Program-made: the position numbers and the translations under genes | Part shown: positions 5,605-30,508 of the stretch, in pieces | How positions within the stretch are numbered: the stretch's first letter is position 1 | How the letters are laid out: every line of letters starts with the position of its first letter | The notes under the pieces: model-generated | Seen by the model: only the letters and a program-made list of their open reading frames with translations | What the model was told of the DNA's origin: nothing | Databases searched by the model: none | Assembly: GCF_029674545.1 (NCBI RefSeq) | Contig: NZ_CP121354.1 | Location: 6,023,001 to 6,087,000, forward strand | Direction: 5' to 3' | Source: Mesorhizobium sp. WSM4904 | GTDB lineage: Bacteria; Pseudomonadota; Alphaproteobacteria; Rhizobiales; Rhizobiaceae | Length of the DNA: 64,000 bases

Positions 5605-7112
5605 GCCGCGCTGTGCAGCGGCCCGCCGGCGACTTGCGCCAGCAGCCGGTCGAGATCGATATCGGCGTTCCTGTGCTCGCCGGCGATCGTGTGTTCCGAC
5701 ATCACCAGGATGCGGTCGGCGGTCTCGAGCGCCTCGTCGATCTCGGTGACGAAGAGGAGCGTCGCGCGGCCGTCGGCGCTCGCCCTCAGCTTGGCCGCGA
5801 TATCGCGCCGCGCCGAGATGTCGACGCCCTGAAACGGCTCGTCGAGGATGAACAGGCGCGAGGCCTGCGACATCCAGCGCGCCACCATCACCTTCTGCTG
5901 GTTGCCGCCGGACAGCGCCGAGAGCTCGTCCTTTTCCGAACGACAGACGATGCCGAGCTCGGTGATCTGGCGGCGGGCGGCGGCGCGCTCGGCGCGGCGC
6001 TTCATGACGCTGAAGCCCGACATGCGCTTGAGGAACGGCAGGCTGATATTGCGCTCGATGTTGAAGCCGCCGACGATGCCACTGTCGGCGCGGTCCTTGG
6101 CGACGAGGAAGACGCCGGCGGCGATCGCTTCGCGCGCCGAGTGTGGCGCGTAGGGCCTGCCGTCCATATGCATGGTGCCGGCCAGCGGCCTGCGCACGCC
6201 GAACAGCGTTTCGGCCAGCGCCGTCTTGCCGACGCCGACGAGACCGGTAATCGCCACCACCTCGCCAGCGCCGAGCGTCATCGAGATCGGCTTGGCGCCC
6301 TGCGCCAGCTGAAGTCCTTCGGCTGTGAAGACGGCGCGCGCCGAATTTCTGGCGACGACCTGGTCGAGGTGGATCTTGCGGCCGAGCATGGCATTGACGG
6401 CGCCCTCATAGTCGAGCGGCTTCCGGTCGAAGACGCCGGAGATGACGCCGTCGCGCATCGAGACGATGCGGTCGGCAAGGCGCCGGATGTCGGACATGCG
6501 GTGCGAGATGTAGAGGATCGCGACACCCTGCCCGCGCAACCGGTCGATCAGCGAAAACAGCCGGTCTGCTTCGGCGCTCGATAGCGAGGAGGTCGGCTCG
6601 TCGAGGATCAGCACCTTGGGCTGGTGCGCCATGGCGCGGGCAATGGCCACCATCTGCCGGTCGGCGAGCGATAGGTCGGCGACACGCGCCCTGAGGTCGA
6701 TGGCGAGGCCCATGCGGTCGGCGACGGCCCTTGCCTCGGCGCGAACATTGGCAGGCTTGAACAGCAGCGATGCGCCCTTGCCGCTCAACCGGTCGAGCGT
6801 CAGGTTGGTGGCGACGTCGAGATCGGCCACCACGCCGTCGTTGATGTTCTGATGCACGGTGACGACGCCGGCGCGGATGGCTTCCGCCGGCGTGACGGGA
6901 TCGAATGCCTGGCCGGCAAGCCGCATCGCGCCGCCGCCGCGCTCGTAGACGCCGCTGATGATCTTGACCAGCGTGGACTTGCCGGCGCCGTTGGCGCCCA
7001 TCAGCACGGTAACCTCACCGGCATGCAATTCGACCGAGATGCCGCCAAGCACCTCGTTCTGGCCGAAGGATTTCCTCAGGCCCTCCACACGGAACACGGC
7101 ATCTGCGCCCAT
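5601..7112 (-). CDS. Sugar ABC transporter ATP-binding protein with two ABC domains (RbsA/MglA type)
   Basis: A 503-aa tandem ATPase that energises CUT2 sugar import. Domain 1 has Walker A GANGAGKST (about 39-47) and Walker B VLILDEPTSSL with a degenerate signature LSLADRQ. Domain 2 has a degenerate Walker A (GLVGVGKT), the CUT2 hallmark LSGGNQQK and Walker B LFILDEPFQGVD. The ATG at 7112 is chosen because GGGAGGA lies just before it; a GTG at 7130 would place that ribosome site inside the gene. It is the first gene of the transporter operon, divergent from mtnK. Confidence 0.9.
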   Translation of the reverse strand: MGADAVFRVEGLRKSFGQNEVLGGISVELHAGEVTVLMGANGAGKSTLVKIISGVYERGGGAMRLAGQAFDPVTPAEAIRAGVVTVHQNINDGVVADLDVATNLTLDRLSGKGASLLFKPANVRAEARAVADRMGLAIDLRARVADLSLADRQMVAIARAMAHQPKVLILDEPTSSLSSAEADRLFSLIDRLRGQGVAILYISHRMSDIRRLADRIVSMRDGVISGVFDRKPLDYEGAVNAMLGRKIHLDQVVARNSARAVFTAEGLQLAQGAKPISMTLGAGEVVAITGLVGVGKTALAETLFGVRRPLAGTMHMDGRPYAPHSAREAIAAGVFLVAKDRADSGIVGGFNIERNISLPFLKRMSGFSVMKRRAERAAARRQITELGIVCRSEKDELSALSGGNQQKVMVARWMSQASRLFILDEPFQGVDISARRDIAAKLRASADGRATLLFVTEIDEALETADRILVMSEHTIAGEHRNADIDLDRLLAQVAGGPLHSAA

Positions 7113-7131
7113 TCGTTCCTCCCTGGCCACG

Positions 7132-7194
7132 ACGCTATGGGCTCACTCGTCAATTGTCAACACGATTGACAATTGCCAGAGCGCTACCTAGCTT
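7132..7194. promoter_or_regulatory. Symmetric divergent promoters with a shared operator (transporter / mtnK)
   Basis: A perfect 10-bp inverted repeat with a 5-nt spacer (7151-7160 and 7166-7175) contains two back-to-back TTGACA boxes. Rightward: -35 at 7166-7171, 17-nt spacer, -10 TAGCTT at 7189-7194. Leftward: -35 at 7160-7155, 17-nt spacer, -10 TAGCGT at 7137-7132. A repressor on the palindrome would cover both -35 boxes and switch transporter and mtnKA together. No regulator gene lies next to it. Confidence 0.7.
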
Positions 7195-7250
7195 GGCCCC
7201 GCCGCCGTGGCTCCGCTATCGTTGGCGACCCACGAGCAGGAGGGGAGAGG

Positions 7251-8525
7251 ATGACCGAGAAGAAGCCGTTCGAAGCATTGTCGGTGGAGACGCTGCCGAA
7301 GCGCCTTGGCGGAAACGCGGCGCTGACCGAGCGCATCGGCGAGGACGCCGGCCGCTGGAAGGTACGCGAGGTCGGCGACGGCAATTTGAACCTCGTCTTC
7401 ATCGTCGAGGGCGACAAGGGCGCGGCGGTGGTCAAGCAGGCGCTGCCCTATGTGCGGTTGGTCGGCGACAGCTGGCCGCTGCCCTTGAAGCGCTCCTTCT
7501 TCGAATATCATGCCCTGACCAGGCAAGAGCGCCGAGCGCCCGGCTCGGTGCCGGCGATCTACCATTTCGATGAGACGCAAGCGCTGATCGTGATGGAGTA
7601 TCTGGCGCCGCCGCACGTCATTCTCAGGCGGGCGCTGATCGACGGACGCGAGCTGCCGAATATCGCGCGCGATATCGGCCTGTTCATGGCCCGCACGCTG
7701 TTTCGCGGCTCGGACCTGTCGATGGCGGCGCGCGAGCGCAAGGCCGATCTCGCTTTATTCGCCGACAATGTCGAGCTCTGCGACATCACCGAGAACCTGG
7801 TTTTCTCCGACCCCTATTTCGACGCCGAGATGAACCGGCACACCAGCCCGCAGCTCGACGGCCTGGTCGCCGAATTGCGCGCCGACCGCGACCTCAAGGT
7901 CGAGGCGCAGCGGCTGAAGCATCTCTTCGCCGCCAATGCCGAGACGCTGCTGCATGGCGACCTGCATTCCGGCTCGATCATGGTCACCGAAGCCGAGACT
8001 CGGATGATCGATCCGGAGTTCGCCTTCTACGGCCCGATCGCCTTCGACGTCGGCATGCTGCTCGCCAATTTCTGGATGGCCTACTTCTCGCAGCGCGGCC
8101 ATGAGGAGAACGGCAGCCGGGATTCGATGCGCGCCTATCTGCTCAGGGTCACGGCCGAAACCTGGACGGTGTTCCGCGCCGAGTTCTCGCATCTGTGGCG
8201 AACCGAGCGCACCGGCATGCTCTACCAGAAGAGCCTGTTCGAGGATCAGGGCGACCGCCTGGGCGCCGAACAGGCGCTCGACCACATGCTTGGCGGCATC
8301 TGGACCGACCTGCTGGGCTTTGCCGGCATCGAGGTGCACCGGCGTATCCTCGGCCTCGCCCACAATGCCGATTTCGAGACCATTGCCGATCAAGACCTGC
8401 GCGCCACATGTGAGGCCAAGGCACTGCGCTTCGGCCGCCACATCGCCGTCAACCGGCATCGGATCCACAGCATCGATGAGGTCAACACCTTGGCCGCGCT
8501 GATCGAACAGGAGAGCAGAATTTGA
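7251..8525 (+). CDS. mtnK: S-methyl-5-thioribose kinase
   Basis: Phosphorylates 5-methylthioribose to 5-methylthioribose-1-phosphate in methionine salvage. The 424-aa protein has the aminoglycoside-phosphotransferase-like fold with catalytic loop HGDLHSGS and the MTR-kinase-specific DPEFAFYGP that supplies the metal-binding Asp. The ATG at 7251 follows a strong AGGAGGGGAGAGG ribosome site. The stop overlaps the mtnA start by 4 nt. The usual partner genes mtnB, mtnC, mtnD and mtnE are not in this window. Confidence 0.93.
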
Positions 8526-9616
8526 ACGTCGGCGAGCGCCACTACCGCACCATTTGGCTCAGCGACGACAAGCGTTCGGTCGAGATCATCGACCAGCGCT
8601 GGCTGCCGCATGAGTTCCGCATCGAGACGATCGGAACAGTTGCCGGCATCGCCACCGCGATCCGCGACATGTGGGTGCGCGGCGCGCCGCTGATCGGCGT
8701 CACCGCCGCCTATGGCGTCGCCATCCAGATGACGGACGATCCGTCGGACGAGGCGCTCGACGCGGTGTGGGAGACGCTGCACAAAACGCGGCCGACGGCG
8801 ATCAACCTGCGCTGGGCGCTGGACGAGATGCGGCGGTTTCTCAGGCCGCTGGCGCCGGGAGAGCGCGCCGAGGCCGCCTATCGCCGTGCCGCCGAGATTG
8901 CCGACGAGGATGTCGGGCTGAACCGCGCCATCGGCGAGAACGGGCTTGCCATCATTAAGGCGATCGCGGCGAAGAAGAAGCCGGGCGAGACGGTCAACAT
9001 CCTCACCCATTGCAACGCCGGCTGGCTGGCGACGGTCGACTACGGCACCGCCACGGCGCCGATCTATCTCGCGACGGAAGCCGGCATCCCGGTCCATGTC
9101 TATGTCGACGAGACCAGGCCGCGCAACCAAGGCGCCCAGCTGACCGCCTGGGAGATGGCCGGCCACGGTGTGCCGCATACGCTGATCGTCGACAATGCCG
9201 GCGGCCATCTGATGCAGCATGGCGACATCGACATGGTGATCGTCGGCACCGACCGCACGACCGCCAATGGCGACGTCTGCAACAAGATCGGCACCTATCT
9301 CAAGGCTTTGGCCGCCGCCGACAATGACGTGCCCTTCTATGTCGCGCTGCCCTCGCCCACCATCGACTGGACCGTGGCCGACGGGCTTGCGGAAATTCCG
9401 ATCGAGGAGCGCTCCGGCGACGAAGTTTCGCTGGTCTGGGGCAAGACGGCCGACGGCAAGGTCGCGCAGGTGCGCGTCTCGCCGGATGCGACGCCGGCGG
9501 CCAATCCCGCCTTCGACGTGACGCCGGCAAGGCTGGTGACCGGGCTGATCACAGAGCGCGGCGTGGCGAAGGCTTCGCGCGAGGGGCTGAGGGCGATGTT
9601 TCCGGAGCTGGGGTGA
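8522..9616 (+). CDS. mtnA: S-methyl-5-thioribose-1-phosphate isomerase
   Basis: Converts methylthioribose-1-phosphate to methylthioribulose-1-phosphate, the step after MtnK. The 364-aa protein shows the eIF2B-related fold with the active-site Cys164 in THCNAGW and Asp244 in [10 protein letters not shown]. The start is a TTG overlapping the mtnK stop (TTGA); the next ATG would remove conserved N-terminal sequence (residues 6-20, including the IWLSDD stretch), so the TTG is favoured. Translational coupling to mtnK is likely. Confidence 0.93.
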
Positions 9617-9762
9617 TCTCCCCCCTCGAGGGGGAGATGTCGCCGAAGGCGACAGAGGGGGCGCTGCGCGTGGAGCGCCGACGCCCTTGCGGACGTGAAG
9701 AAGAAGTTGGCGCTCCACGCGCAGCGACCCCTCTGCCCTGCCGGCCATCTCCCCCTCAAGGG
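9616..9762. repeat. RIME-like intergenic element, interrupted by two insertion sequences
   Basis: The unit starts with a palindrome (9616-9638), then a GTCGCC-GAA-GGCGAC hairpin (9639-9653). Long inverted arms follow, 9653-9679 and 9709-9735, differing at one position. The terminal palindrome of the second arm is broken at 9762 by the IS4-family element and resumes beyond the IS481 element at 12368. Joining the flanks restores a near-perfect palindrome like the one at 9616. Confidence 0.75.
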
Positions 9763-11085
9763 CATATGCGCTAAGATAGCTTTGGCATGGCTTGAAATTT
9801 GCGTTTTCGCGGTGGCTCACGCCAACGATGCCGCAAGGCATGGAGATTTTGGCGCAAGCTTGCCAAGCGAGGCTGAGTAAAGATCGCTGCGATCAGCGAG
9901 GCGACGATCTGGCGGGTGGCGCGCCACAGCAGCGGGCGCCCGTCGCTCAAGGGGGAGAGACACCCAACTCCTGCGAGAGGGGTTCGGTCACAAGCGCGAT
10001 GAGGAAGTGGGCAAGAATCCAAGGCTTTGCGATCCTTGGGTCTTTGGCGGGAGGCGCGCGCAGCCCGATCAGGCTCTTCAGACGCTTGAAGGCGAGCTCG
10101 ATGCGCCAGCGCATGCGATAGAGCTTGAGAACCGTGCCGGCGGGAAACTCCTGCCGGTCAAGCGAGGTCACAAGGATGACGAAGCCGGCCGCAATCAGCG
10201 TCTCGGGTCGAACCTTGTTGCCCTTGGCCTTGGCTTCCTTGTTGATTTTGCGCCGCGCTTCTTGTGCCGCTGCCTCGGATTTGCGCAAGGCGATCAGGCG
10301 CATCTTCACAGGCTCGCCCTTCTTGAGGGCCAACCGGACAGGCGTTTCGAAGACTTCCTCGCGGCGGCTCTCCAGGTAGCCGATGAGATCGAACGCCTTG
10401 CCGTTGGCGTCGAGCCATCGCGCATTCTTCCACGACGCGCGCACGACAACGTCGCCGCCTTGCGCCATGACCCTTGCGATCCGCTCGGCCTGCAGATAGG
10501 CGCGGTCGCCGATGCGGATCTCGCCCGCCACCACCGGCACGCGGTCGATCAGCTCGGCCTCGCTTTGGTCGGTGATCTCGAGGAAATCGAACTGCTCGCG
10601 CTCAAGCTCGAAGGCGCAGTGCATGCGCCAAAGGCCATTGTTCTTCTTCTCATGCGCACCGGCCTTGGCAACCGCCGTCGCATCGAGGATGCGGATCAGC
10701 CGGCCCTTGGCCAAGCCTTTTTCCTCGCGCTTCAAAAGATGCCCAATCAACTGCTGCAGCCACGGCCCTGCATTGCGCAGCCGGCCGAGCAAGGCCACGT
10801 CCGAGATGTCGGCAATCCCGCTCGCCGCCGCCCAGGCCACGACGCCCCGCATGCCCACCTTGCCAAGGCAGTAAGCCAATGTCAGGCGCAACAGATCGCA
10901 CGCCGACCGGATACCCCGCGGTCGCAGGAACGCCTTCGTCTCGCGCGCACTTCCTGCGATCAACTCTTCGCCGCCGAGAAGCGCAATCGTCTCGGCCCAG
11001 CCGTCATCAACAAGTGATTCGTGTGTCATCCTCAGCGTAGAATCACAACCGATTCCGCGCTGCAACACCTATCTTAGCGCCTATG
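9763..11085. mobile_element. IS4-family insertion sequence (1323 bp)
   Basis: Terminal inverted repeats of 17 bp (9763-9779 and 11069-11085) match at 16 positions. A 10-bp target duplication CCCTCAAGGG flanks the element (9753-9762 and 11086-11095), a length usual for this family. It contains one intact transposase gene on the minus strand. Both ends and the transposase are intact, so the copy may still be mobile. Confidence 0.9.
9947..11029 (-). CDS. IS4-family DDE transposase
   Basis: A 360-aa transposase with the catalytic Asp contexts DATAV and IGDRAYL. The C-terminal signature is Tyr-(2)-Arg-(3)-Glu-(6)-Lys, seen as YRMRWRIE followed by LAFKRLK, which defines the IS4 group. The ATG at 11029 is preferred; an in-frame GTG at 11068 would start at the inner edge of the terminal repeat. 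No frameshift or internal stop is visible. Confidence 0.92.
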   Translation of the reverse strand: MTHESLVDDGWAETIALLGGEELIAGSARETKAFLRPRGIRSACDLLRLTLAYCLGKVGMRGVVAWAAASGIADISDVALLGRLRNAGPWLQQLIGHLLKREEKGLAKGRLIRILDATAVAKAGAHEKKNNGLWRMHCAFELEREQFDFLEITDQSEAELIDRVPVVAGEIRIGDRAYLQAERIARVMAQGGDVVVRASWKNARWLDANGKAFDLIGYLESRREEVFETPVRLALKKGEPVKMRLIALRKSEAAAQEARRKINKEAKAKGNKVRPETLIAAGFVILVTSLDRQEFPAGTVLKLYRMRWRIELAFKRLKSLIGLRAPPAKDPRIAKPWILAHFLIALVTEPLSQELGVSPP

Positions 11086-21511: not shown

Positions 21512-22237
21512 ATGTTCGAGCCGCTTTGCTGCGACATGCCGCTTCATCCGACCTGGCCGGATCTCGCCGCGCGGCTGCTGGCGACACTGGTCGCAGGTTT
21601 TCTCATCGGTTTGAACCGCGAAGCGCGCGGCCACTCCGCCGGGCTGCGCACGACCATACTGGTCGGCCTTGCGGCTTGCGTCGCCATGGTCCAGGCCAAC
21701 ATGCTGCTCGATGTGTCCGGCAAAGCGCCGGACTCCTTCGTGCGCATGGACGTGATGCGTTTTGCGCTCGGCGTGCTCACCGGCGTCGGCTTCATCGGCG
21801 GCGGCGCCATCCTGAGGCGCGGCGATCTCGTCACCGGCGTCACCACCGCCGCCACCATGTGGATCGTGACGATGATCGGGCTGGCCTTCGGCGGCGGTCA
21901 GTTCGGCCTCGCCGCAATCGCGACCGTTCTAACGCTGGTGACCCTGCAGGCCCTGAAATGGGTCGATTTGAAGATTTCTCGCGACCACAAGGCGATCCTG
22001 TCGGTCTCATGGCCGAAGAGTTCGCCGCCCGACATTGGGGACATGGTGCGCCCGCTCGGCTACGACGCACGCTTCGTCGGCATGGAGCACGATACCGACC
22101 GCGACTGCTTCGTGTTTTCCTTCAACGTTCAATGGAAGCAGCCCGAAGCGCTCGAGCCTTCGACGGACGTGCTGGCGGTGATCGCCGAGCACTGCGCGGT
22201 CGAGCGCTTCGAGGTGATCGGCGAGAAGCCGTTTTGA
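21512..22237 (+). CDS. MgtC/SapB family membrane protein
   Basis: A 241-aa protein with the MgtC fold: GFLIGLNREARGHSAGLRT is the family signature, followed by GVLTGVGFIGGGAILRRGD and further helices to about residue 150. A soluble C-terminal domain of about 80 residues follows. MgtC proteins modulate F-type ATP synthase or magnesium stress responses in several bacteria; this one has no such neighbour. ATG 21536 is an alternative start. It converges on the VWA gene with a 16-nt gap. Confidence 0.88.
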   Translation: MFEPLCCDMPLHPTWPDLAARLLATLVAGFLIGLNREARGHSAGLRTTILVGLAACVAMVQANMLLDVSGKAPDSFVRMDVMRFALGVLTGVGFIGGGAILRRGDLVTGVTTAATMWIVTMIGLAFGGGQFGLAAIATVLTLVTLQALKWVDLKISRDHKAILSVSWPKSSPPDIGDMVRPLGYDARFVGMEHDTDRDCFVFSFNVQWKQPEALEPSTDVLAVIAEHCAVERFEVIGEKPF

Positions 22238-22253: not shown

Positions 22254-23483
22254 TTACTCGGAGGCGGTTGGCGCCTCGGCGTCGGCGCGAATGAGCTTGA
22301 TATCCGCTCCCGCCGCCCAGGCGCCAATGTCCTCGCGGCGCAGCGCCGCCGCCATCATGTCGGGGAAATGATCGGGCGTGCAGGCAAAGACCGGGATACC
22401 CAGCGCGGCGACCGAACCGGCCATCGACGGATCGTAGCCGGGGCGGCCCTGATCGGTGAGGGCGAGCAGCACGATGACATTGACGCCGGACCGAACGAGC
22501 GCGGCCAGTCTTTGCAGAAGCTCCTGGCCGTTGCCGCCTTCGTAGAGATCGGTGATCAGCACGAAATGCGCCTTGGTCGGCCGTTCGATGCGCCCGGCGC
22601 AATAGGCGACCGCCTGGTTGATGTCGGTGCCGCCGCCGAGCTGGACGCCGAACAGCACTTCGACCGGATCGCTGAGCTCTTCCGTCAGGTCGACGATCGC
22701 GGTGTCGAAGCAGACGAGTTTTGTGCGCACGACCGGCAGCGAAGCCATGAGGGCGGCGAAGATCGACGCATAAATCACCGAACTTGCCATTGAACCTGAC
22801 TGGTCGACGCATAAAGTCACCTCGTCGAGGTCGACAAGCCGGCGCTGGCGACGCATGAAGCCGACCAGCTTTTCCGGCACCACGGTCTTGTGGTCCGGCT
22901 GATAGTGGCGAAGGTTGGCCGCGATGGTGCGCGGCCAGTCGATGTCGCGCTGCCGCGGCCGGTTGGTGCGCCGCGAGCGGTCGAGCGCGCCGCGGATCGC
23001 CTCGGCGGTCTTCTGCTCCAGGCGCTGCATCAGCTTGGCGACGATGTCGGAAATGATGGAGCGGGCGATGTCCTTGGTCTTCTCCGGCATAGCCGAGCGC
23101 AGCGAGACCAAGTCGGCGACGAGATTGACGTCGGCCTCGATCGCCTTGAGGAACTCCGGCTCCATCAGCATCTGCTTCAGGTTCAGCCGCTCGAAGGCGT
23201 CCTTCTGCACGACCTGGACGACCTGTTCGGGAAAGAACGAGCGGATATCGCCCATCCATTGCGCGACACGCGGCGCCGAGCGGCCGAGCCCGCCGCGCCG
23301 CTTGCGCGGATCGCCGGCCGCCTCGCCATCGCCATAGAGCGCGTCGAGCGCCGCCGACAGCCGGCGGTCCTCGGCCGAGAGCGCAGAGGAAGTTTCATCG
23401 TCGGCGCCGATCGCCAGGCGCCAGCGGCGCTCTCGTTTGTCTTGCGTCGAATTGAGGTCCGGGCCGACCGTTTCATCATCCAT
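22254..23483 (-). CDS. VWA domain protein, last gene of the SWIM-DUF5691-MoxR-DUF5682-VWA operon
   Basis: A 409-aa cytoplasmic protein. The C-terminal half is a von Willebrand A domain with a complete MIDAS: DQSGS (227-231), Thr in GGGTD and Asp in LITD. The N-terminal 200 residues are helical and charged. VWA proteins encoded with MoxR ATPases usually act as substrate adaptors (as in RavA-ViaA). The ATG at 23483 overlaps the DUF5682 stop by 8 nt and has GGGGGAGG upstream, so translation is coupled. The specific partner and target are unknown. Confidence 0.88.
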   Translation of the reverse strand: MDDETVGPDLNSTQDKRERRWRLAIGADDETSSALSAEDRRLSAALDALYGDGEAAGDPRKRRGGLGRSAPRVAQWMGDIRSFFPEQVVQVVQKDAFERLNLKQMLMEPEFLKAIEADVNLVADLVSLRSAMPEKTKDIARSIISDIVAKLMQRLEQKTAEAIRGALDRSRRTNRPRQRDIDWPRTIAANLRHYQPDHKTVVPEKLVGFMRRQRRLVDLDEVTLCVDQSGSMASSVIYASIFAALMASLPVVRTKLVCFDTAIVDLTEELSDPVEVLFGVQLGGGTDINQAVAYCAGRIERPTKAHFVLITDLYEGGNGQELLQRLAALVRSGVNVIVLLALTDQGRPGYDPSMAGSVAALGIPVFACTPDHFPDMMAAALRREDIGAWAAGADIKLIRADAEAPTASE

Positions 23484-25734
23484 GGCCGGCCTCCCCCGCA
23501 AGCAGCTTGCCGATGATGCCGAGATGCCGGCGCCAGGCCTCGCCGCCGTCCGGCGCCGGCATCAGGCCGGCGGGGAGGCTCGCCCGGCGGCCAAGCACGG
23601 CCTCGATCAGGCGGCGGCGCTCCATGCTGTCGAGATTGGAAAAGACGCGGCGCAGCAAGGGCAGATGCGCCACGAACGCCTCTTCGTCGAGCGATGCCAG
23701 CCATGCATCGACGGCGCCGCGCAGGCCCTCGTCATAGATAAGCCTCTGGCCGGCGCCGCTGAAGAAGCCTTCGAAGAAAGCGGCAGCATCGATCACCGGC
23801 GTTCCCGGCGACAGGCGCTTTGCCAAAAGGTCGGCCGTGGCTTCGGCCGAGAGCCGCCCGGCCTCGTAGAGCAGATGCGCGGCACAGCCGGCAACGAGCG
23901 CCGTCGAGCGCGACGAATCGAGCACGGCCGTCAGGCCGTTCCGCCACGCCTCCAGGACATGTTCGTCCGGCTCCACCAGCCTGATTGCCTCGTCGGCCTT
24001 GCGCAGCGCGCCCATCAGCGCCGCGGCTGCCTGAGCGTCGAGGTCGCGCGCCGCATAGGGCAGCGCCATCGAACCCTCGATGATCAGCCGTTCCAAGAGG
24101 CCGGCAAGGCGCTCGGTCTCGGTCTTGCGCGCTTCGCCGTAGCGGATGATGTCGGCCAGCGGCGGCACCGAAGCCAGCAGTTCCAGGCATTCGCTGCTGT
24201 GCGCCGCCTTTTCCTCGAGCGCGGCGAGGCCGGCCGCGGACGCCTCGCTCAAGGCGGCCGTGATCGCGCTCTGGACCAGCGCAGCCAGAGCGTCGAGCGC
24301 TGTGGCCGCGCCGATCATCTGGACAAGGCGGCCGTTGGCGGCCTTCTCGATGGTCGGCCCGTAGATCAGGTTTTCGACCAGGCGCACGGCATATTCCGGC
24401 TGCCAGGCCAGCATCCAGCGCTCGCGGAACGTGCCGCGGCTGCGGCCGACATCCGTCAGCCTGCCCCAGTTCACGCCAAGCACGTTCAGACGGTGCAGCA
24501 GCGTCGAGCGGAAGAGTCCGCTGTCGCTGCGCAGGTCGATGGACAGTTCCCGCTCAAGCGCCTCTGGTTTCAGCCTGGCGGCTTTCTGGTTGCGCTGCAG
24601 GTCGTCGATCAGCGGCGCAAGCGGCGTGTCGGCCGGGATCTCGCCGACATCGGCGCCGAGCAGCAGTTCGGCCTCGACCATCTTCCACAGCAGGGCCTCG
24701 CCGTTGAAAAGGGCTGAAATCGAGGCATCGCGCAACTCCTCGAAGCCCGGCTTCGGCCGTTCGCGGATGGCGGCGAGCGCACGCGCCAGACGCTCCGCTT
24801 CGATCAGCGACGCCGTCGAGATCATGTGGCCCTTGGCGCGGAGTACCGCGGCGATCTGCGCGAGCCACAGAACCGAGGCGTCGTCCTGCCCCCGCGTCTG
24901 CCACAGATGCTTGCACCAGCCGGGCGCGACGACGCCGGCGCCGTAGCCATGGCCCAGCGCCAGGCGCGGTCCAGTCCACGGCGCATAAGTCATCGTGGTC
25001 TTGCGCCGGCCGGTGCCCCTGAGCAGCGCCTGGTCGCTCTTTTGTGTGTGCGCGGCCCGCAAGGCCGGCACATGCCAGGCGCCGCAGACGACGGCCAGCG
25101 GTCCGTCGAACTCCTTGCGCGCGGCCGCGATCTCCAGCCGCATATGCGCCTCGCGCATAGCCTCGAACTCGCCGATCGCGCCCTCGCCGTCGCGCAGCGT
25201 CGTCATCGCGTCGGCGATGGCCGCGAAGATCGGGCCAGGATCAGGGTTCTGCTCGATGATATCCGACCACCAGCTTTCGCCGTCCTCATAGCCGGCGGCG
25301 CGCGCCAAGGTGCCTATCGGATCCTGGATGCGCGTGGTCTCTTCGCTCTGCGCTTCCGTGACTTCGGCCTCGGCGGCATCGGCGTCGGTCGATCCTTCAG
25401 GCGCCCTCTCCGCAAGCCTCGCGGCCGACGGAAGATCGATGAAGCGCAGCGCCGCCTTGTTGGCGACGGCCCAACGTGCTGCCTGATATTCCGGCGAGAA
25501 TTCGGCGAAGGGCCAGAAGCTGGTCGCGGCTGGGTCGTCCTCCGGATAGCAGAGCAGCGCCACCGGCGGCCTCATCTCGGGGCTGGCAAGCAGCGGCAGC
25601 AGCGCCGACGCGTCCGCCGGCCCCTCGATCAGCACGGCGACCGGCTGAAATTCCTGCAACGCCTTGACCAGGCTCGCGGCAGAGCCCGGCCCGTGATGGC
25701 GTATGCCGAAATAGCTGATGCCGCGCTCAGTCAT
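23476..25734 (-). CDS. DUF5682 family protein
   Basis: A 752-aa protein with the DUF5682 opening GIRHHGPGSA (10-19), then VLIEGP with Glu37, and GAWHVPAL with His221. These three spaced motifs resemble the metal-site pattern of TraB/ChaN/EreA-like proteins, so a hydrolase-like N-terminal domain is a reasonable inference. The remaining 500 residues are helical with no catalytic motif I can name. It starts 3 nt after the AAA gene stop. Function not established. Confidence 0.82.
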   Translation of the reverse strand: MTERGISYFGIRHHGPGSAASLVKALQEFQPVAVLIEGPADASALLPLLASPEMRPPVALLCYPEDDPAATSFWPFAEFSPEYQAARWAVANKAALRFIDLPSAARLAERAPEGSTDADAAEAEVTEAQSEETTRIQDPIGTLARAAGYEDGESWWSDIIEQNPDPGPIFAAIADAMTTLRDGEGAIGEFEAMREAHMRLEIAAARKEFDGPLAVVCGAWHVPALRAAHTQKSDQALLRGTGRRKTTMTYAPWTGPRLALGHGYGAGVVAPGWCKHLWQTRGQDDASVLWLAQIAAVLRAKGHMISTASLIEAERLARALAAIRERPKPGFEELRDASISALFNGEALLWKMVEAELLLGADVGEIPADTPLAPLIDDLQRNQKAARLKPEALERELSIDLRSDSGLFRSTLLHRLNVLGVNWGRLTDVGRSRGTFRERWMLAWQPEYAVRLVENLIYGPTIEKAANGRLVQMIGAATALDALAALVQSAITAALSEASAAGLAALEEKAAHSSECLELLASVPPLADIIRYGEARKTETERLAGLLERLIIEGSMALPYAARDLDAQAAAALMGALRKADEAIRLVEPDEHVLEAWRNGLTAVLDSSRSTALVAGCAAHLLYEAGRLSAEATADLLAKRLSPGTPVIDAAAFFEGFFSGAGQRLIYDEGLRGAVDAWLASLDEEAFVAHLPLLRRVFSNLDSMERRRLIEAVLGRRASLPAGLMPAPDGGEAWRRHLGIIGKLLAGEAGHG

Positions 25735-25737
25735 GGC

Positions 25738-26817
25738 TCAGATGGCCGCGTTCAACGCCGCGTAGTAGCCGGCATAGTCCGGCCGCTTCTTCAGCACCGT
25801 CTCAAGATATTCCTCGAGCACGACCTTGTCCTGGACCGGATCCTTGACGATCGCGCCGACAAGGCTCGGAGCCAGGCCTTCGGCATGGAGCTTGCCGCCG
25901 TCGAACCACGCCGCCTGGCTGAGGCCGCTGATCATCGTGGCGATCGCCTCGGCGGTGGAGAGCGAGCCCGACGGCGTCTTCAGCGTCACCTTGCCGTCCG
26001 AGGTCGCGCCGGAGCGCAGTTCGCGGAAGATAGTGAGCACGCGGGCGATCTCCTCGCCGACATTTTTCGGCACCGGCAAGTCCAGCCCGCCGGCCATCTC
26101 GCCGACGCGCCTGGAGACGATTGAGACCTCTTCCGCCATATCCTCCGGCAGAGGCAACACCACGACATTGAAGCGCCGCTTCAGAGCCGAGGAGAGTTCG
26201 TTGACGCCCTTGTCGCGGTTGTTGGCCGTCGCGATGATGTTGAAGCCGCGCTGCGCGTAGATCGAGGTGTTAAGTTCCGGCACCGGCATCATTTTTTCGG
26301 ACAGCACGGTGATCAACGTGTCCTGCACGTCGGAACCCATGCGCGTCAGCTCTTCGAGGCGGCAGAGCTTGCCATCCTGCATGGCGCGATAGAGCGGCGT
26401 CGGCACCAGCGCCTCCTGGCTCGGGCCTTTTGCCAGCAGCTGGGCGTAGTTCCAGCCATAGCGGATCTGGTTCTCGTCGGTGCCGGCCGTGCATTGCACG
26501 ATCAGCGTCGAGTTCCCCATGATGGCACCGGCGAGATGTTCCGAGACCCAGGACTTCGCCGTTCCCGGCACGCCGAGCAGAAGCAGCGCCCGGTCGGTCG
26601 CGAGCGTCGCCACCGCAGTTTCCATCAGTTGGCGGCGGCCAACATATTTCGGCGTGATGAGCGTGCCGTCGCTCGCCTTGCCGCCCATCAGGTAAGTGAG
26701 GACGGCCTTTGGCGACAGGCTCCAGCCGGCAGGCTTTTGCCGATCATCGTCGCGCGCGAGCGCCTGCAGTTCGGCGGCGTAGACCTGCTCGGCCGGAAGG
26801 CGGATGGCTGCGTTCAT
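25738..26817 (-). CDS. MoxR-type AAA+ ATPase
   Basis: A 359-aa AAA+ protein with Walker A GVPGTAKS (82-89), sensor 1 ATANN (196-200) and the arginine-finger region SALKRRF (210-216). The Walker B position reads LCRLEEL (151-157): the usual Asp before the catalytic Glu is Glu. MoxR ATPases remodel or insert cofactors into partner proteins with a VWA adaptor, here encoded two genes downstream. It lies 18 nt after the DUF5691 stop and 3 nt before DUF5682. Confidence 0.9.
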   Translation of the reverse strand: MNAAIRLPAEQVYAAELQALARDDDRQKPAGWSLSPKAVLTYLMGGKASDGTLITPKYVGRRQLMETAVATLATDRALLLLGVPGTAKSWVSEHLAGAIMGNSTLIVQCTAGTDENQIRYGWNYAQLLAKGPSQEALVPTPLYRAMQDGKLCRLEELTRMGSDVQDTLITVLSEKMMPVPELNTSIYAQRGFNIIATANNRDKGVNELSSALKRRFNVVVLPLPEDMAEEVSIVSRRVGEMAGGLDLPVPKNVGEEIARVLTIFRELRSGATSDGKVTLKTPSGSLSTAEAIATMISGLSQAAWFDGGKLHAEGLAPSLVGAIVKDPVQDKVVLEEYLETVLKKRPDYAGYYAALNAAI

Positions 26818-26835
26818 GCGATCTCTCCGGGTTGA

Positions 26836-28272
26836 TCATCTGGTTGGGTTTCCGGCCAGCGCCGCGTTGAGGCGCAGCAGGCCGAGCGACGGGGAAGCCG
26901 GCGGCAGGCCGGCGGCGACGACCTCGCCGATCAATTTTTCCGCCGTCATAGGATTGGCCAGAAAGCCCAGGGTTTCGAGATGTTGCTCGGCGTTTCGTTT
27001 CGTGACGTCGTTGTCGCCCGAGACGGCGGACCGCAGCGCCGAAAGCGTCTTGCCCTTTGCTAGGTCGCTCCATTCGAGCCAGCTTGCTTCCGCGCCTTCG
27101 ACCATGTTGAGAGCGGCCAGGTTTTGCGCATCATTCAGGATCTGCCTGATCAGGACGCGCTTCCTGCCGCCATCCAAACGCAACATGAGCTGGAGGGCGA
27201 GAATCGCCAGCCTGCCGCCGGCGGCGGCAAGCAGATCCGCCAGAGAGGCCACCGCCGCGTCGCCGCCGGACACCGAGACCATTCGAACCAGAAAGAGATC
27301 GGCGCCGTCATCGACGCCGAACTGCCATGCGCCGATGAAATCAGGCTCGGTCCTGCCAAAGCGGGCGACGAGATCGCCGAAGTAACAGGTGGCGAACAAG
27401 TCGGCGCGACGTGCTTGTTGCGCCTGTGACTTGGGTTTTGTCGGCGCGTAGGTGGAGCGGCGGCGGATGAAGCCGGATTTGCCTTCCTCGATGAAAGCGG
27501 CGAGCTCAGCTGTCGGATCTTCCGACCCGCCATCCGTTGGATTGCCACGTTCCCCCAATCTTGCCAGCAGCCGGCCAGCCATTTCGCGCACCTTGCCTGA
27601 GCGGTCGGCGGACAGGCTCTTCAGAAACGGAACGTCATCGGCACTCAGGCCGAAGCGCATGAGTTCAATGAGCGCCAGCCTGACCTCCGCCGGCTCGCTT
27701 GCCCCCTTGGTCTCGATAAGAGTGCGCGCCAAGGCAGGCATGGTGCGCCGTAAATCGACCAGCGCGCTACGGCGCGCGGCGGGATAGAAATCATCCCAGG
27801 TTTCCGCCGTCAGATGCTCGCGTCGAGGCTGTTTTTCGCTGTCCGCGCCCGCCTGCCAATCGACCCAGGGGCCGTAGACGTCCGGACTTTCCTGATATGA
27901 CGCGGCGGGCATCCAATCCATCGGATGCAGCACGAAGCCGCGGCTGGCGACAAGCGTTGCCACGCGGGTCTTGAGCCTCGCATCGGCCGCGTATTTCAAT
28001 GCGGCACGCAGCAACGGCCGCAGGCGATCGGGAAGCATAGGCAGCGCAAGCACCGGCAGGGGTGGACGCCGTTTCAAGGTTTTCGGCGCCGCCGGCCGAA
28101 GCGCGACATCCAGCGCCTGGGCGGCGATCGCCAACAGCCGCCGCTCCTGCTCGTCGGGGTTGGCGGCAGCTGCAAGCTCCTTCCACTCGGCCGGTGCAAG
28201 CTCGAAACCGACGCCGCCCGAAATCCAGCCGTCGCGCAATCTTGCCAGCCCTGCCTGCTCCAGCTCGTTCAT
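26836..28272 (-). CDS. DUF5691 family protein
   Basis: A 478-aa protein that is almost wholly alpha-helical, with leucine-rich repeated helices resembling HEAT-type repeats, such as the segment around LALIELMRFGLSADDVPFL. No catalytic motif is visible, so a scaffold or peptide-binding role is plausible. The ATG at 28272 overlaps the SWIM gene stop (ATGA). DUF5691 proteins are found mainly in this kind of gene cluster. Confidence 0.8.
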   Translation of the reverse strand: MNELEQAGLARLRDGWISGGVGFELAPAEWKELAAAANPDEQERRLLAIAAQALDVALRPAAPKTLKRRPPLPVLALPMLPDRLRPLLRAALKYAADARLKTRVATLVASRGFVLHPMDWMPAASYQESPDVYGPWVDWQAGADSEKQPRREHLTAETWDDFYPAARRSALVDLRRTMPALARTLIETKGASEPAEVRLALIELMRFGLSADDVPFLKSLSADRSGKVREMAGRLLARLGERGNPTDGGSEDPTAELAAFIEEGKSGFIRRRSTYAPTKPKSQAQQARRADLFATCYFGDLVARFGRTEPDFIGAWQFGVDDGADLFLVRMVSVSGGDAAVASLADLLAAAGGRLAILALQLMLRLDGGRKRVLIRQILNDAQNLAALNMVEGAEASWLEWSDLAKGKTLSALRSAVSGDNDVTKRNAEQHLETLGFLANPMTAEKLIGEVVAAGLPPASPSLGLLRLNAALAGNPTR

Positions 28273-29669
28273 GACAGGTCGAGCCTCCCGATGCTGCTCT
28301 GCGATGCCAGGAGCTCGAGCCTGGCGCCGTTCCAGAGCGCTGCCGTCGCCGCGAGGTCGAAGCCGAGCAAAGTCTGGCTGACGGAACCCGCGACAGGCAG
28401 GGCGATGCCATGCGGATCGCTGGCCGGCTGCCACCAGGCGCCGTCCTTCTCATCCAGCGCGATGGCACCCGCCGGCAAGATGATGGGGCAGTCCGAGAGC
28501 CAGGGCGCGCCATCCTGGAACGCGGCGTAAGCGGCCAGCGGATCGCCGGTAGCGTCTTCAGCGAAAATTGGCCACGCGCCCGGCGCCGCATCGCCCAGTC
28601 GTTCCGCGACCAGCGCCCGCAGCGGATTGCGGGACGGATAGAACACCAGCCTCGCCTTGAAGCGATCCCCCGGCGCGAAGGCGCCGGAGCGCCGCCCGGC
28701 CGACGCCGGAAAGAAGTCGAGCAGCACCGCAAAGCGAGGCGTGGGGCTTTTCAGATCGAGCAGCCAGGTCGCGTGACTGACGAGGCCGTCGCGGCGACTC
28801 TCGATCTTCTCGCCGAGCACCTCCCAGTCGCTCTCGACCTGGATGGCATCCGGATTGGCAAGGATCTGGTCGCGCGTCTCCGATGTCGAGACCAAGCGCT
28901 TCAGCTCGGCATCGTCGGGCGCAGCGCGCCAGGCCTTGGCGATGAGCACCAGCTTGCCGAGCTCGCGGATCGCAGCGTCCGGCCGCTCCTCGCTGCGCAG
29001 CGCCATCAGCCGCGCCGGCAGCTCGTCGATACGACCGGCCAAAGCGGTCGCCTTCAGGTCGACAAGCCGCGCGGCGATGCGGCGACAGCGCTCGCTGCTG
29101 GCGTCGACAAATCCGGCAAGGCCAAGCCGCAGCTGGTCGGCAATCCACTGGTCGAGCTCATCGAGCGCCGCCGAAACCGCGGTTCGCGTGTCCTCAGCCC
29201 GCTTGCGCTGTGCCGCCTCACGGCGTTCGGCGGCCGCGGCGTCTTCGACCGGGGCGCTCTGCTCAGGCCGCGCGGCCTCTTCGATGCTCTTGCCTTCGGC
29301 GCGTGCTGGCGCTGCCGTTGGCGGCTGGCCCGGCTTGCGGCGGCGGCCAAGCCAGTCGTTCACCCATTCCGGCGTCTGATCGACCCGGGCGAAACTGTCT
29401 GGCGCGGTGGCGCCGATCCACATCAGCGCCAGAATGTGCTTGCACGGAAACTTGCGCGACGGACAGGTGCATTTATAACCGTGATCCGACGTATCGAATG
29501 CGACCCGGTAGGGATTCGAGCCGGAGCCCTGGCATTCGCCCCAGATCAGCGGCAGCTGTTCATGCGCTTCAAGCCGGGGCCAGTTCGACCGCTTGGTCAG
29601 CTTGGCGGCGGCGCCAAGCGAGGCCTGATCGGGGGCTAAAGCCTCGATTGTCTTCAAATCCAACTGCAA
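28269..29669 (-). CDS. SWIM zinc-finger protein, first gene of the five-gene operon
   Basis: A 466-aa protein with an N-terminal SWIM zinc finger, CxCx6CxH (Cys67, Cys69, Cys76, His78 in YKCTCPSRKFPCKH), which in other proteins binds DNA or protein. An Ala/Glu/Arg-rich, possibly coiled-coil linker (about 115-180) leads to a large C-terminal domain without recognised motifs. The frame stays open to 29753; the TTG at 29669 is proposed because GGGGAAG lies just upstream, but this start is uncertain. Confidence 0.8.
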   Translation of the reverse strand: MQLDLKTIEALAPDQASLGAAAKLTKRSNWPRLEAHEQLPLIWGECQGSGSNPYRVAFDTSDHGYKCTCPSRKFPCKHILALMWIGATAPDSFARVDQTPEWVNDWLGRRRKPGQPPTAAPARAEGKSIEEAARPEQSAPVEDAAAAERREAAQRKRAEDTRTAVSAALDELDQWIADQLRLGLAGFVDASSERCRRIAARLVDLKATALAGRIDELPARLMALRSEERPDAAIRELGKLVLIAKAWRAAPDDAELKRLVSTSETRDQILANPDAIQVESDWEVLGEKIESRRDGLVSHATWLLDLKSPTPRFAVLLDFFPASAGRRSGAFAPGDRFKARLVFYPSRNPLRALVAERLGDAAPGAWPIFAEDATGDPLAAYAAFQDGAPWLSDCPIILPAGAIALDEKDGAWWQPASDPHGIALPVAGSVSQTLLGFDLAATAALWNGARLELLASQSSIGRLDLS

Positions 29670-29789: not shown

Positions 29790-30083
29790 TCAGGCGGGCA
29801 CGGCGGTGTCGGCTCCGCCGAGATAGAGCCGGTGCAGTTCGTCCGGCGATTGGCGAAGATTGGCGCAGTCGCCGTCGTAGACGACGCGGCCGCGGCGCAT
29901 GACATAGGCGCGGTTGCCGATCGACAACGCAAGTGCTGCGAACTGCTCGACGAGAAGCACCGCCAGGCCATCATCGGCGAGCTTGCGCACCGCCGTCATC
30001 AGCCGCGTGACGATGACCGGCGCCAGGCCGGCCGACATCTCGTCGATCAGCAGCACCTTCGGGCGGGTGAGAAGCGCCCGCGC
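29790..30083 (-). pseudogene. livF: livF remnant (3' end of a branched-chain amino acid ABC ATPase)
   Basis: About 97 C-terminal codons of a LivF-type ATPase: RALLTRPKVLLIDEMSAGLAP (Walker B region, shown in part) through LLVEQF (H-loop) to a normal stop. Walker A and the ABC signature are missing. Homology ends abruptly at about 30083, where an IclR remnant begins on the other strand. Not functional as an ATPase. Confidence 0.82.
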
Positions 30084-30508
30084 TGACCGTCCATGTCGAA
30101 CTGTCGGCCAAGGCCAACCGGATCAATGTCGATGTCGGCCAGGTGCTGCCGCTGCACGGCACGGCGTCGGGCATCGCCTTCCTTGCCGCCTCGCGGCTGG
30201 AAGTGGTCAGCGCTTATCTCGAAAAGCCTTTGCAGGCCTTCACCGCGCATACGATGACAGGGCCGGAGACGCTGGCCAAAGCCATCGCGTTTGCAGCCGC
30301 AAGCGGCTATTCGCGCAGTTCGCAGAGCTATGAGGAAGGCGTGCACAGCATAGGCGCCGCGATCCTAGGCGCCGACGGCCAGCCGATCGGGACGCTGTCG
30401 ATCGCCTCCCCAGTCTCGCGCGTCGACGACGCGGTCGCGGCCAGCCAGGGCGAGGCGGCGGTCAGGGCGGCGCGGCTGATCTCGGCACGGCTGACCGGCG
30501 AGGCATAA
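30080..30508 (+). pseudogene. iclR-type regulator remnant (effector-binding domain only)
   Basis: About 142 codons of an IclR-family C-terminal domain: LPLHGTASGIAFLA, a central KAIAFAAASGYS and SIGAAILGADGQPIGTLSIA, ending at a normal TAA. The helix-turn-helix and about 110 N-terminal residues are gone. The 5' end abuts the 5'-truncated livF remnant head to head, as expected from one deletion through two divergent genes. Confidence 0.8.

Follow-up and report, generated by a model that had tools for sequence, protein, structure and literature searches.

The locus considered here lies in Mesorhizobium sp. WSM4904, within a 64,000-nucleotide stretch of its 6.65-Mb single-contig genome (contig NZ_CP121354.1, positions 6,023,001 to 6,087,000; hereafter the window, numbered from its first base), and consists of five genes encoding a SWIM zinc-finger protein, a DUF5691 protein, a MoxR AAA+ ATPase, a DUF5682 protein and a CoxE-type VWA protein (Table 1). 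Open reading frames (ORFs) and sequence confirm the arrangement given in a preliminary description of this DNA, with all five genes on the minus strand (22254-29669) and joined by a 4-nucleotide (nt) ATGA overlap between SWIM and DUF5691, gaps of 18 nt between DUF5691 and MoxR and 3 nt between MoxR and DUF5682, and an 8-nt overlap between DUF5682 and VWA. The SWIM gene has a TTG start, which agrees with the starts of its homologues. Sequence motifs and Pfam matches likewise bear out the CxCx6CxH finger, the MoxR ATPase and the VWA protein with a full metal ion-dependent adhesion site (MIDAS) listed in that description, as well as the pairing of MoxR with VWA. The finger reads CTCPSRKFPCKH, and its residues C67, C69, P70, S71, R72, P75, C76, K77 and H78 are invariant across 30 SWIM sequences. 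MoxR carries a Walker A motif (GVPGTAKS), RLEELTR at the Walker B position, sensor 1 (ATANNRD) and an LKRRF arginine motif, and the MIDAS motifs of VWA are DQSGSM, GGGTDI and ITDLY, with DxSGS kept in 76 of 77 homologues.

Table 1 Genes of the five-gene operon in the window, in order of transcription, with amino acid (aa) lengths and Pfam matches
Gene product	Coordinates	Strand	Length	Pfam match	Assignment
SWIM zinc-finger protein	28269..29669	minus	466 aa	26.6 bits (cut-off 19.6), E 4.3e-6	putative adaptor/sensor; counterpart of E. coli YehQ
DUF5691 protein	26836..28272	minus	478 aa	73.7 bits (cut-off 27), E 2.7e-20	probable helical-repeat scaffold
MoxR AAA+ ATPase	25738..26817	minus		AAA_5, 130.4 bits (cut-off 22), E 6.3e-38	YehL type
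DUF5682 protein	23476..25734	minus	752 aa	700.2 bits (cut-off 26), E 4.4e-210	N-terminal TraB/ChaN-like predicted hydrolase + C-terminal helical repeat
CoxE-type VWA protein	22254..23483	minus	409 aa	VWA_CoxE, 185.5 bits (cut-off 26.4), E 1.3e-54	full MIDAS; counterpart of E. coli YehP

We scanned GTDB contigs with a DUF5682 alignment and patterns derived from the protein's two histidine motifs, and obtained at least 571 confirmed stretches. The best 80 were surveyed, being those that most resemble the window's DUF5682 and having been found through it; their gene order was read by iterated profiles over their ORFs. The order SWIM-DUF5691-MoxR-DUF5682-VWA on one strand is present in 66 of the 80 loci, more than chance would give, where same order need not mean adjacent genes: in one Bacteroidota locus (L094) a DUF4132 gene sits ahead of VWA, and in Variovorax sp. 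OK212 (L073) more than 4 kb separates MoxR from DUF5682 (5673-9989), a stretch whose two longest plus-strand ORFs match no Pfam family above cut-off. Loci with the cassette come from Pseudomonadota, Cyanobacteria, Bacteroidota, Chloroflexota, Planctomycetes, Acidobacteria, Verrucomicrobia, Actinobacteria and Myxococcota, and a Deinococcus plasmid also bears the five-gene set, for about ten phyla in all. Elsewhere in the survey, the cassette is interrupted by contig ends (L042, L049, L068, L078 and L100), VWA has moved to the opposite strand (L093 and L101), or SWIM and DUF5691 are divergent (L104). In two of the 80 loci, SWIM and DUF5691 form a single ORF (L077, 977 aa, 5794-8727; L102, 949 aa, 6089-8938) with both domains above their Pfam cut-offs, which argues for physical contact between the two proteins. 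The same-order loci and these fusions support the earlier proposal that the five genes act as one unit, and in most of the 80 loci surveyed the genes are not scattered.

Other recurrent neighbors within 10 kb were limited to close relatives, common transporter-type families and a Bacteroidota gene of about 987 aa. In a sample of 398 genomes from the phylum, DUF5682 occurs in 14 and DUF5691 exceeds its cut-off in 7, all of them among those 14, with sub-threshold DUF5691 matches in two further genomes that have no DUF5682. Among named DUF5682 proteins, those of Mesorhizobium are closest. We also observed a locus labelled Bifidobacteriaceae (L046) whose DUF5682 is 54% identical to that of the window, possibly a misbinned proteobacterial contig.

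The core of the operon has a counterpart in E. coli K-12, where yehL, yehM, yehP and yehQ encode MoxR, DUF5682, VWA and SWIM proteins, respectively. The window's MoxR matches YehL at 42% identity over 362 aa (E = 8e-83), nearer than its match to RavA, the other MoxR of E. coli (25% over 101 aa, E = 0.004), and its VWA matches YehP at 35% over 376 aa (E = 5e-77), compared with 24% over 139 aa for ViaA. YehM and YehQ are only distantly similar to their window counterparts, with DUF5682 at 28% identity to YehM and the SWIM protein related to YehQ by a profile match outside the finger (probability 86, E = 4.7e-6), a pair for which BLASTP gives no match. MoxR subfamilies have been defined by sequence and local genetic structure, and YehL is one of seven that are named and one of the two MoxR proteins of E. 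coli K-12 (accessible text of PMC3893208). Local gene structure in the window matches the YehL subfamily in having MoxR-DUF5682-VWA with a SWIM gene, the position of the SWIM gene being different. The window locus belongs, with near certainty, to the YehL group, as what we term a type-A YehL system; the suggestion that the operon was an undescribed system did not survive this comparison, its core being that of the YehL subfamily and of E. coli yehLMPQ.

Comparison of the cassettes yields two architectures, type A with SWIM and DUF5691 first, and type B with DUF4132 usually first and SWIM last. Eight E. coli-type regions were obtained with a Pfam model rather than with the histidine-motif patterns, and a homologue of YehI (DUF4132) lies inside the cluster in seven of them, the eighth being cut by a contig end; in L111, DUF4132 lies between DUF5682 and VWA. 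A SWIM gene is present in five of the eight (three by search, two by position and alignment). The E. coli cluster yehI-yehK-yehL-yehM-yehP-yehQ thus resembles the window operon in carrying MoxR, DUF5682 and a CoxE-type VWA in identical order together with a SWIM protein, but differs in that its SWIM gene is last rather than first and DUF4132 (YehI) replaces DUF5691. This replacement is one of position only, because hhalign gave a probability of 1.4 for DUF5691 against DUF4132 with no profile match, and a relation between the two was rejected. The Bacteroidota gene of about 987 aa adjoins VWA in four loci (L072, L082, L084 and L094), and the two of these genes that were scanned encode DUF4132 with HEAT repeats; DUF4132 beside VWA in these type-A loci connects both architectures. 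As for DUF5691, its earlier description as a helical-repeat protein finds slight support in a match to a designed repeat protein (E = 0.25).

No functional study of yehLMPQ was recognized in the literature searched, which left most subscription journals outside and in which searches with short gene names are weak evidence, and no mention of DUF5682 or DUF5691 was found there. In the accessible portions of individual sources, PMC10652928 names yehM, yehP and yehQ, a transposon is reported in the metG/DUF4132/yeh region of some E. coli (PMC9334617), and the molR promoter is activated by BglJ-RcsB (PMC5025477).

DUF5682 comprises an N-terminal domain (residues about 1-260) and a C-terminal helical repeat (about 270-745). 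We compared profiles for TraB (PF01963, 22 sequences), EreA (PF05139, 6 sequences) and ChaN (PF04187, 20 sequences), with members drawn from 60 genomes each, against DUF5682 residues 1-290 using hhalign, which aligned ChaN over 179 columns (E = 1.1e-4, probability 56%) and TraB over 210 columns (E = 8.7e-4, probability 23%). The corresponding scores of 37.2 for ChaN and 32.2 for TraB compare with shuffled maxima of 25.4 and 18.8, neither being attained in any of 100 column shuffles, and unrelated profiles reached E values of 0.05 or worse against the DUF5682 N-terminus. The same set-up gave a probability of 80% over 41 columns for TraB with ChaN, whose relation is taken as known.

The signature residues of DUF5682 are H13, H14, E37, R194, M198 and G218-x-x-H221, and its G10-x-x-H13, E37, R194 and G218-x-x-H221 align on G16-x-x-H19, E45, R215 and G238-x-x-H241 of TraB. 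Residues 1-260 resemble TraB/PrgY/GumN and ChaN in carrying a histidine, a glutamate, an Arg/Met helix and a G-x-x-H motif in matching order; unlike these proteins, DUF5682 continues into a long helical repeat and is encoded alongside an AAA+ motor. A recount that took in the E. coli-type regions, 89 sequences in all, found E37, D100, R194, E195, M198, G218 and H221 kept in all 89, H13 and H14 in 88 (the remaining one lacking its start) and G10 in 83, with one truncated; these counts are partly circular, because the GTDB loci had been found with patterns on both histidine motifs. An AlphaFold2 model of the protein (mean predicted local distance difference test score 89, predicted template modeling score 0.85) shows an alpha/beta domain followed by a helical repeat. 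In this model the end of strand 6-11 has G10 and H13 on either side and that of strand 213-218 has G218 and H221; E37 falls within strand 33-39, and helix 189-208 contains R194 and M198. Structure comparison matched the C-terminus to HEAT-type chains, and Protein Data Bank sequence searches returned nothing useful, whether run with profiles of DUF5682 and SWIM or with the VWA sequence.

The TraB/ChaN superfamily includes proteases (Tiki), pheromone inhibitors (TraB/PrgY), an esterase (EreA) and a heme binder (ChaN). Judging from the profile scores and conserved residues, the DUF5682 N-terminus is probably a domain of this TraB/ChaN (Tiki) superfamily, and DUF5682, in which nearly all the signature residues are retained, is a predicted hydrolase that could be a peptidase, amidase or esterase. 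The same evidence supports the earlier view of DUF5682 as the likely catalytic part of the system.

A possible regulatory signal lies upstream of one copy of the operon. In Deinococcus taeanensis the operon begins about 20 nt past a DdrO-like palindrome, TTATGTTTCTGGCGTAA (reverse strand; L179:7741-7757), which adjoins a TTGACA/TACAAT-like promoter. The palindrome fits the DdrO motif with two mismatches, equal to the listed dr2173 and ddrF sites, and a simulation of 3000 upstream stretches, each 300 nt long, produced an equally good site in 4 of them. In D. radiodurans, the DUF4132 operon drA0165-drA0166 is DdrO-controlled and its product increases after mitomycin C (PMC8533742, in the text accessible). 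Based on this site, the operon in Deinococcus may be switched on by DNA damage. A one-mismatch SOS box before yehF was discarded, being one of 11 matches where 6.8 were expected.

MoxR, the CoxE-type VWA (relatives of YehL and YehP), DUF5682, DUF5691 and SWIM are encoded as a conserved set, and the explanation we favor for this set, with a probability of about 0.42, is a type-A YehL system that acts as an ATP-coupled processing machine with DUF5682 as its hydrolase. Under this explanation, a MoxR ring with its VWA adaptor would spend ATP on pulling or remodelling client proteins; DUF5682 would act on the client so presented, or might itself be switched on by the motor; and SWIM together with DUF5691 (DUF4132 in the E. 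coli type) would recognize the client and hold the complex together, the whole assembly serving as a quality-control or stress-type processing machine. The specific coupling of a MoxR-VWA motor to a DUF5682 hydrolase is a tentative proposal at short of even odds. A broader version, in which the operon represents a new class of ATP-dependent processing enzymes whose MoxR/VWA motor feeds a TraB/Tiki-family hydrolase, with interchangeable DUF5691/DUF4132 scaffolds and a SWIM receptor, in response to genotoxic or other stress across about ten phyla and E. coli K-12, is rather unlikely to hold in full.

Several observations weigh against the processing-machine explanation. The hhalign probabilities for DUF5682 are modest, no Pfam TraB or ChaN model is listed for it at E 0.01, and a relation to EreA was unsupported (11 of 100 shuffles reach its score, and TraB and EreA also missed each other). 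The 50 structure matches listed include neither a TraB nor a ChaN chain, in a comparison that the helical repeat filled and in which the N-terminal domain was barely tested. To the circularity of the motif counts is added that G10 is a proline in five of the eight E. coli-type regions. In MoxR the Walker B aspartate is a glutamate (EE instead of DE); EELTR is found in at least 72 of 81 MoxR homologues and also in YehL. As for the cassette, DUF5682 stands alone in one locus, with partners absent within 10 kb (L069), two loci that are cut upstream also lack VWA in 9.9 kb downstream (L050 and L066), and one is without SWIM and DUF5691 (L098), suggesting that DUF5682 may sometimes work without the full set; a survey seeded with DUF5682, moreover, cannot show that MoxR-VWA requires it. 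Finally, the DdrO-like site is known from one Deinococcus locus, and LexA-type boxes gave a single match (L086) in 72 other upstream stretches, with no recurrence.

The alternative that survives best, and one we consider possible if somewhat unlikely, is a maturation chaperone, in which MoxR-VWA would insert a cofactor into or activate a metalloenzyme and DUF5682 would bind metal or heme without hydrolysis, in the manner of NorQ-NorD, CbbQ-CbbO and CoxD-CoxE. These are remodelling pairs of a MoxR ATPase and a VWA partner, an architecture that the window operon shares: its VWA is of the CoxE type, sequence searches turned up few solved MoxR relatives, namely midasin modules and NorQ, and the top superfamily match of DUF5682 is ChaN (Cofac_haem_bdg), which binds heme. 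The E. coli cluster also neighbors molR, which we take to be yehF-yehH and which the title of a 1990 paper reportedly ties to molybdate use. However, the cbb, nor and cox pairs are encoded together with their client enzymes, whereas no client enzyme gene recurs within 10 kb of the cassette, which includes a predicted hydrolase. The molybdate link, moreover, is only "possible", with moeA and moeB unchanged, in the accessible text of PMC8533742.

Distribution bears on a second alternative, a nucleoside triphosphate-dependent conflict or anti-phage system in which SWIM and DUF5691 would sense an invader and DUF5682 would be the effector. MoxR-vWA ternary conflict systems exist (PMC7159879, accessible text), and the DUF5682 set is patchy: it occurs in 27 of the 61 genomes sampled from the genus, against 4 of 289 for the class and 14 of 398 for the phylum. 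Matches were also found in 36 of 72,556 records of a plasmid collection, some of them chromosome-sized, with one true plasmid copy adjoining a type I restriction system and an integrase; Iodobacter plasmid pl1 (L180) carries an E. coli-type set with two DUF4132 genes near transposases, a type I restriction system and an integrase. Against this, for none of the five proteins did PADLOC (2023 only) give a match with an E value below 0.007, and the flanks show no defense enrichment: 143 ORFs beside 48 of the 80 loci match 52 defense families, and 135 control ORFs from 20 Pseudomonadota stretches match 61. This comparison drops ORFs above 600 aa or below 150 aa from both sets and counts families, many of them redundant, rather than genes. 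The association with defense islands raised in the preliminary description is thus not borne out. The gene yehM is present in 5284 of 5426 E. coli genomes (80% or more of its length in 5166), unlike a mobile defense gene. The operon resembles the MoxR-vWA-bpX/VMAP ternary systems in combining MoxR and vWA with further parts, and its MoxR narrowly exceeds the bpMoxR cut-off, at 27.5 bits against 27, but their beta-propeller component is not matched: Pfam at E 0.01 found no beta-propeller in the five proteins, nor any domain beyond those named. A term search of the accessible text of PMC7159879 gave no occurrence of DUF56, yeh, SWIM, TraB or TIKI, and PMC10910872, in the part accessible, mentions vWA-MoxR-VMAP systems near CRISPR and does not describe the five-gene set. 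A phage match (MT835988) is an unverified scaffold that carries no annotation, and it was not used. Since PADLOC gave nothing better than the E value stated, the flanks are not enriched and yehM is nearly universal in E. coli, we rank defense below a housekeeping or stress role and consider the conflict system quite unlikely. A chaperone for membrane or respiratory complexes like RavA-ViaA, with DUF5682 merely a structural partner, is very unlikely: it has in its favor the shared architecture of a MoxR ATPase with a VWA partner and the interaction of RavA-ViaA with NADH dehydrogenase I subunits (accessible text of PMC3893208), but the sequence identities given above place the window's MoxR and VWA in other subfamilies than RavA and ViaA, no DUF5682, SWIM or DUF5691 is annotated in the 8-kb ravA region examined, and the conserved H-H/E/R/G-x-x-H residues of DUF5682 argue for an active site.

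Next to the operon, the preliminary description had noted a deletion scar. This scar is real, with a junction at 30088 (within window positions 29793-30500) where a livF-type ABC ATPase gene (minus strand) and an iclR-type regulator gene (plus strand), both labels assigned by eye, meet without their 5' parts; but it is strain-specific and truncates these two genes, not the operon. A locus from the same species (L118) is about 95% identical up to base 30088 and then runs into a longer livF-type reading frame. At the other end, an MgtC-family gene (21512-22237) is convergent with the operon and ends 16 nt from it, and DNA matches place an MgtC-family stretch at the equivalent position in L118, L054 and L026.

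Collectively, these results add a resemblance of the DUF5682 N-terminus to TraB/ChaN, a tie between the cassette and yehLMPQ, and the definition of two architectures. Of the two MoxR ATPases of E. coli K-12, RavA has been studied, and the literature searched gave no function for YehL. The link to yehLMPQ, together with the predicted active site of DUF5682, makes the processing-machine explanation directly testable in E. coli K-12. If it is true, MoxR-VWA motors would drive a dedicated hydrolase, which to our knowledge is not among the known roles of MoxR-VWA systems.

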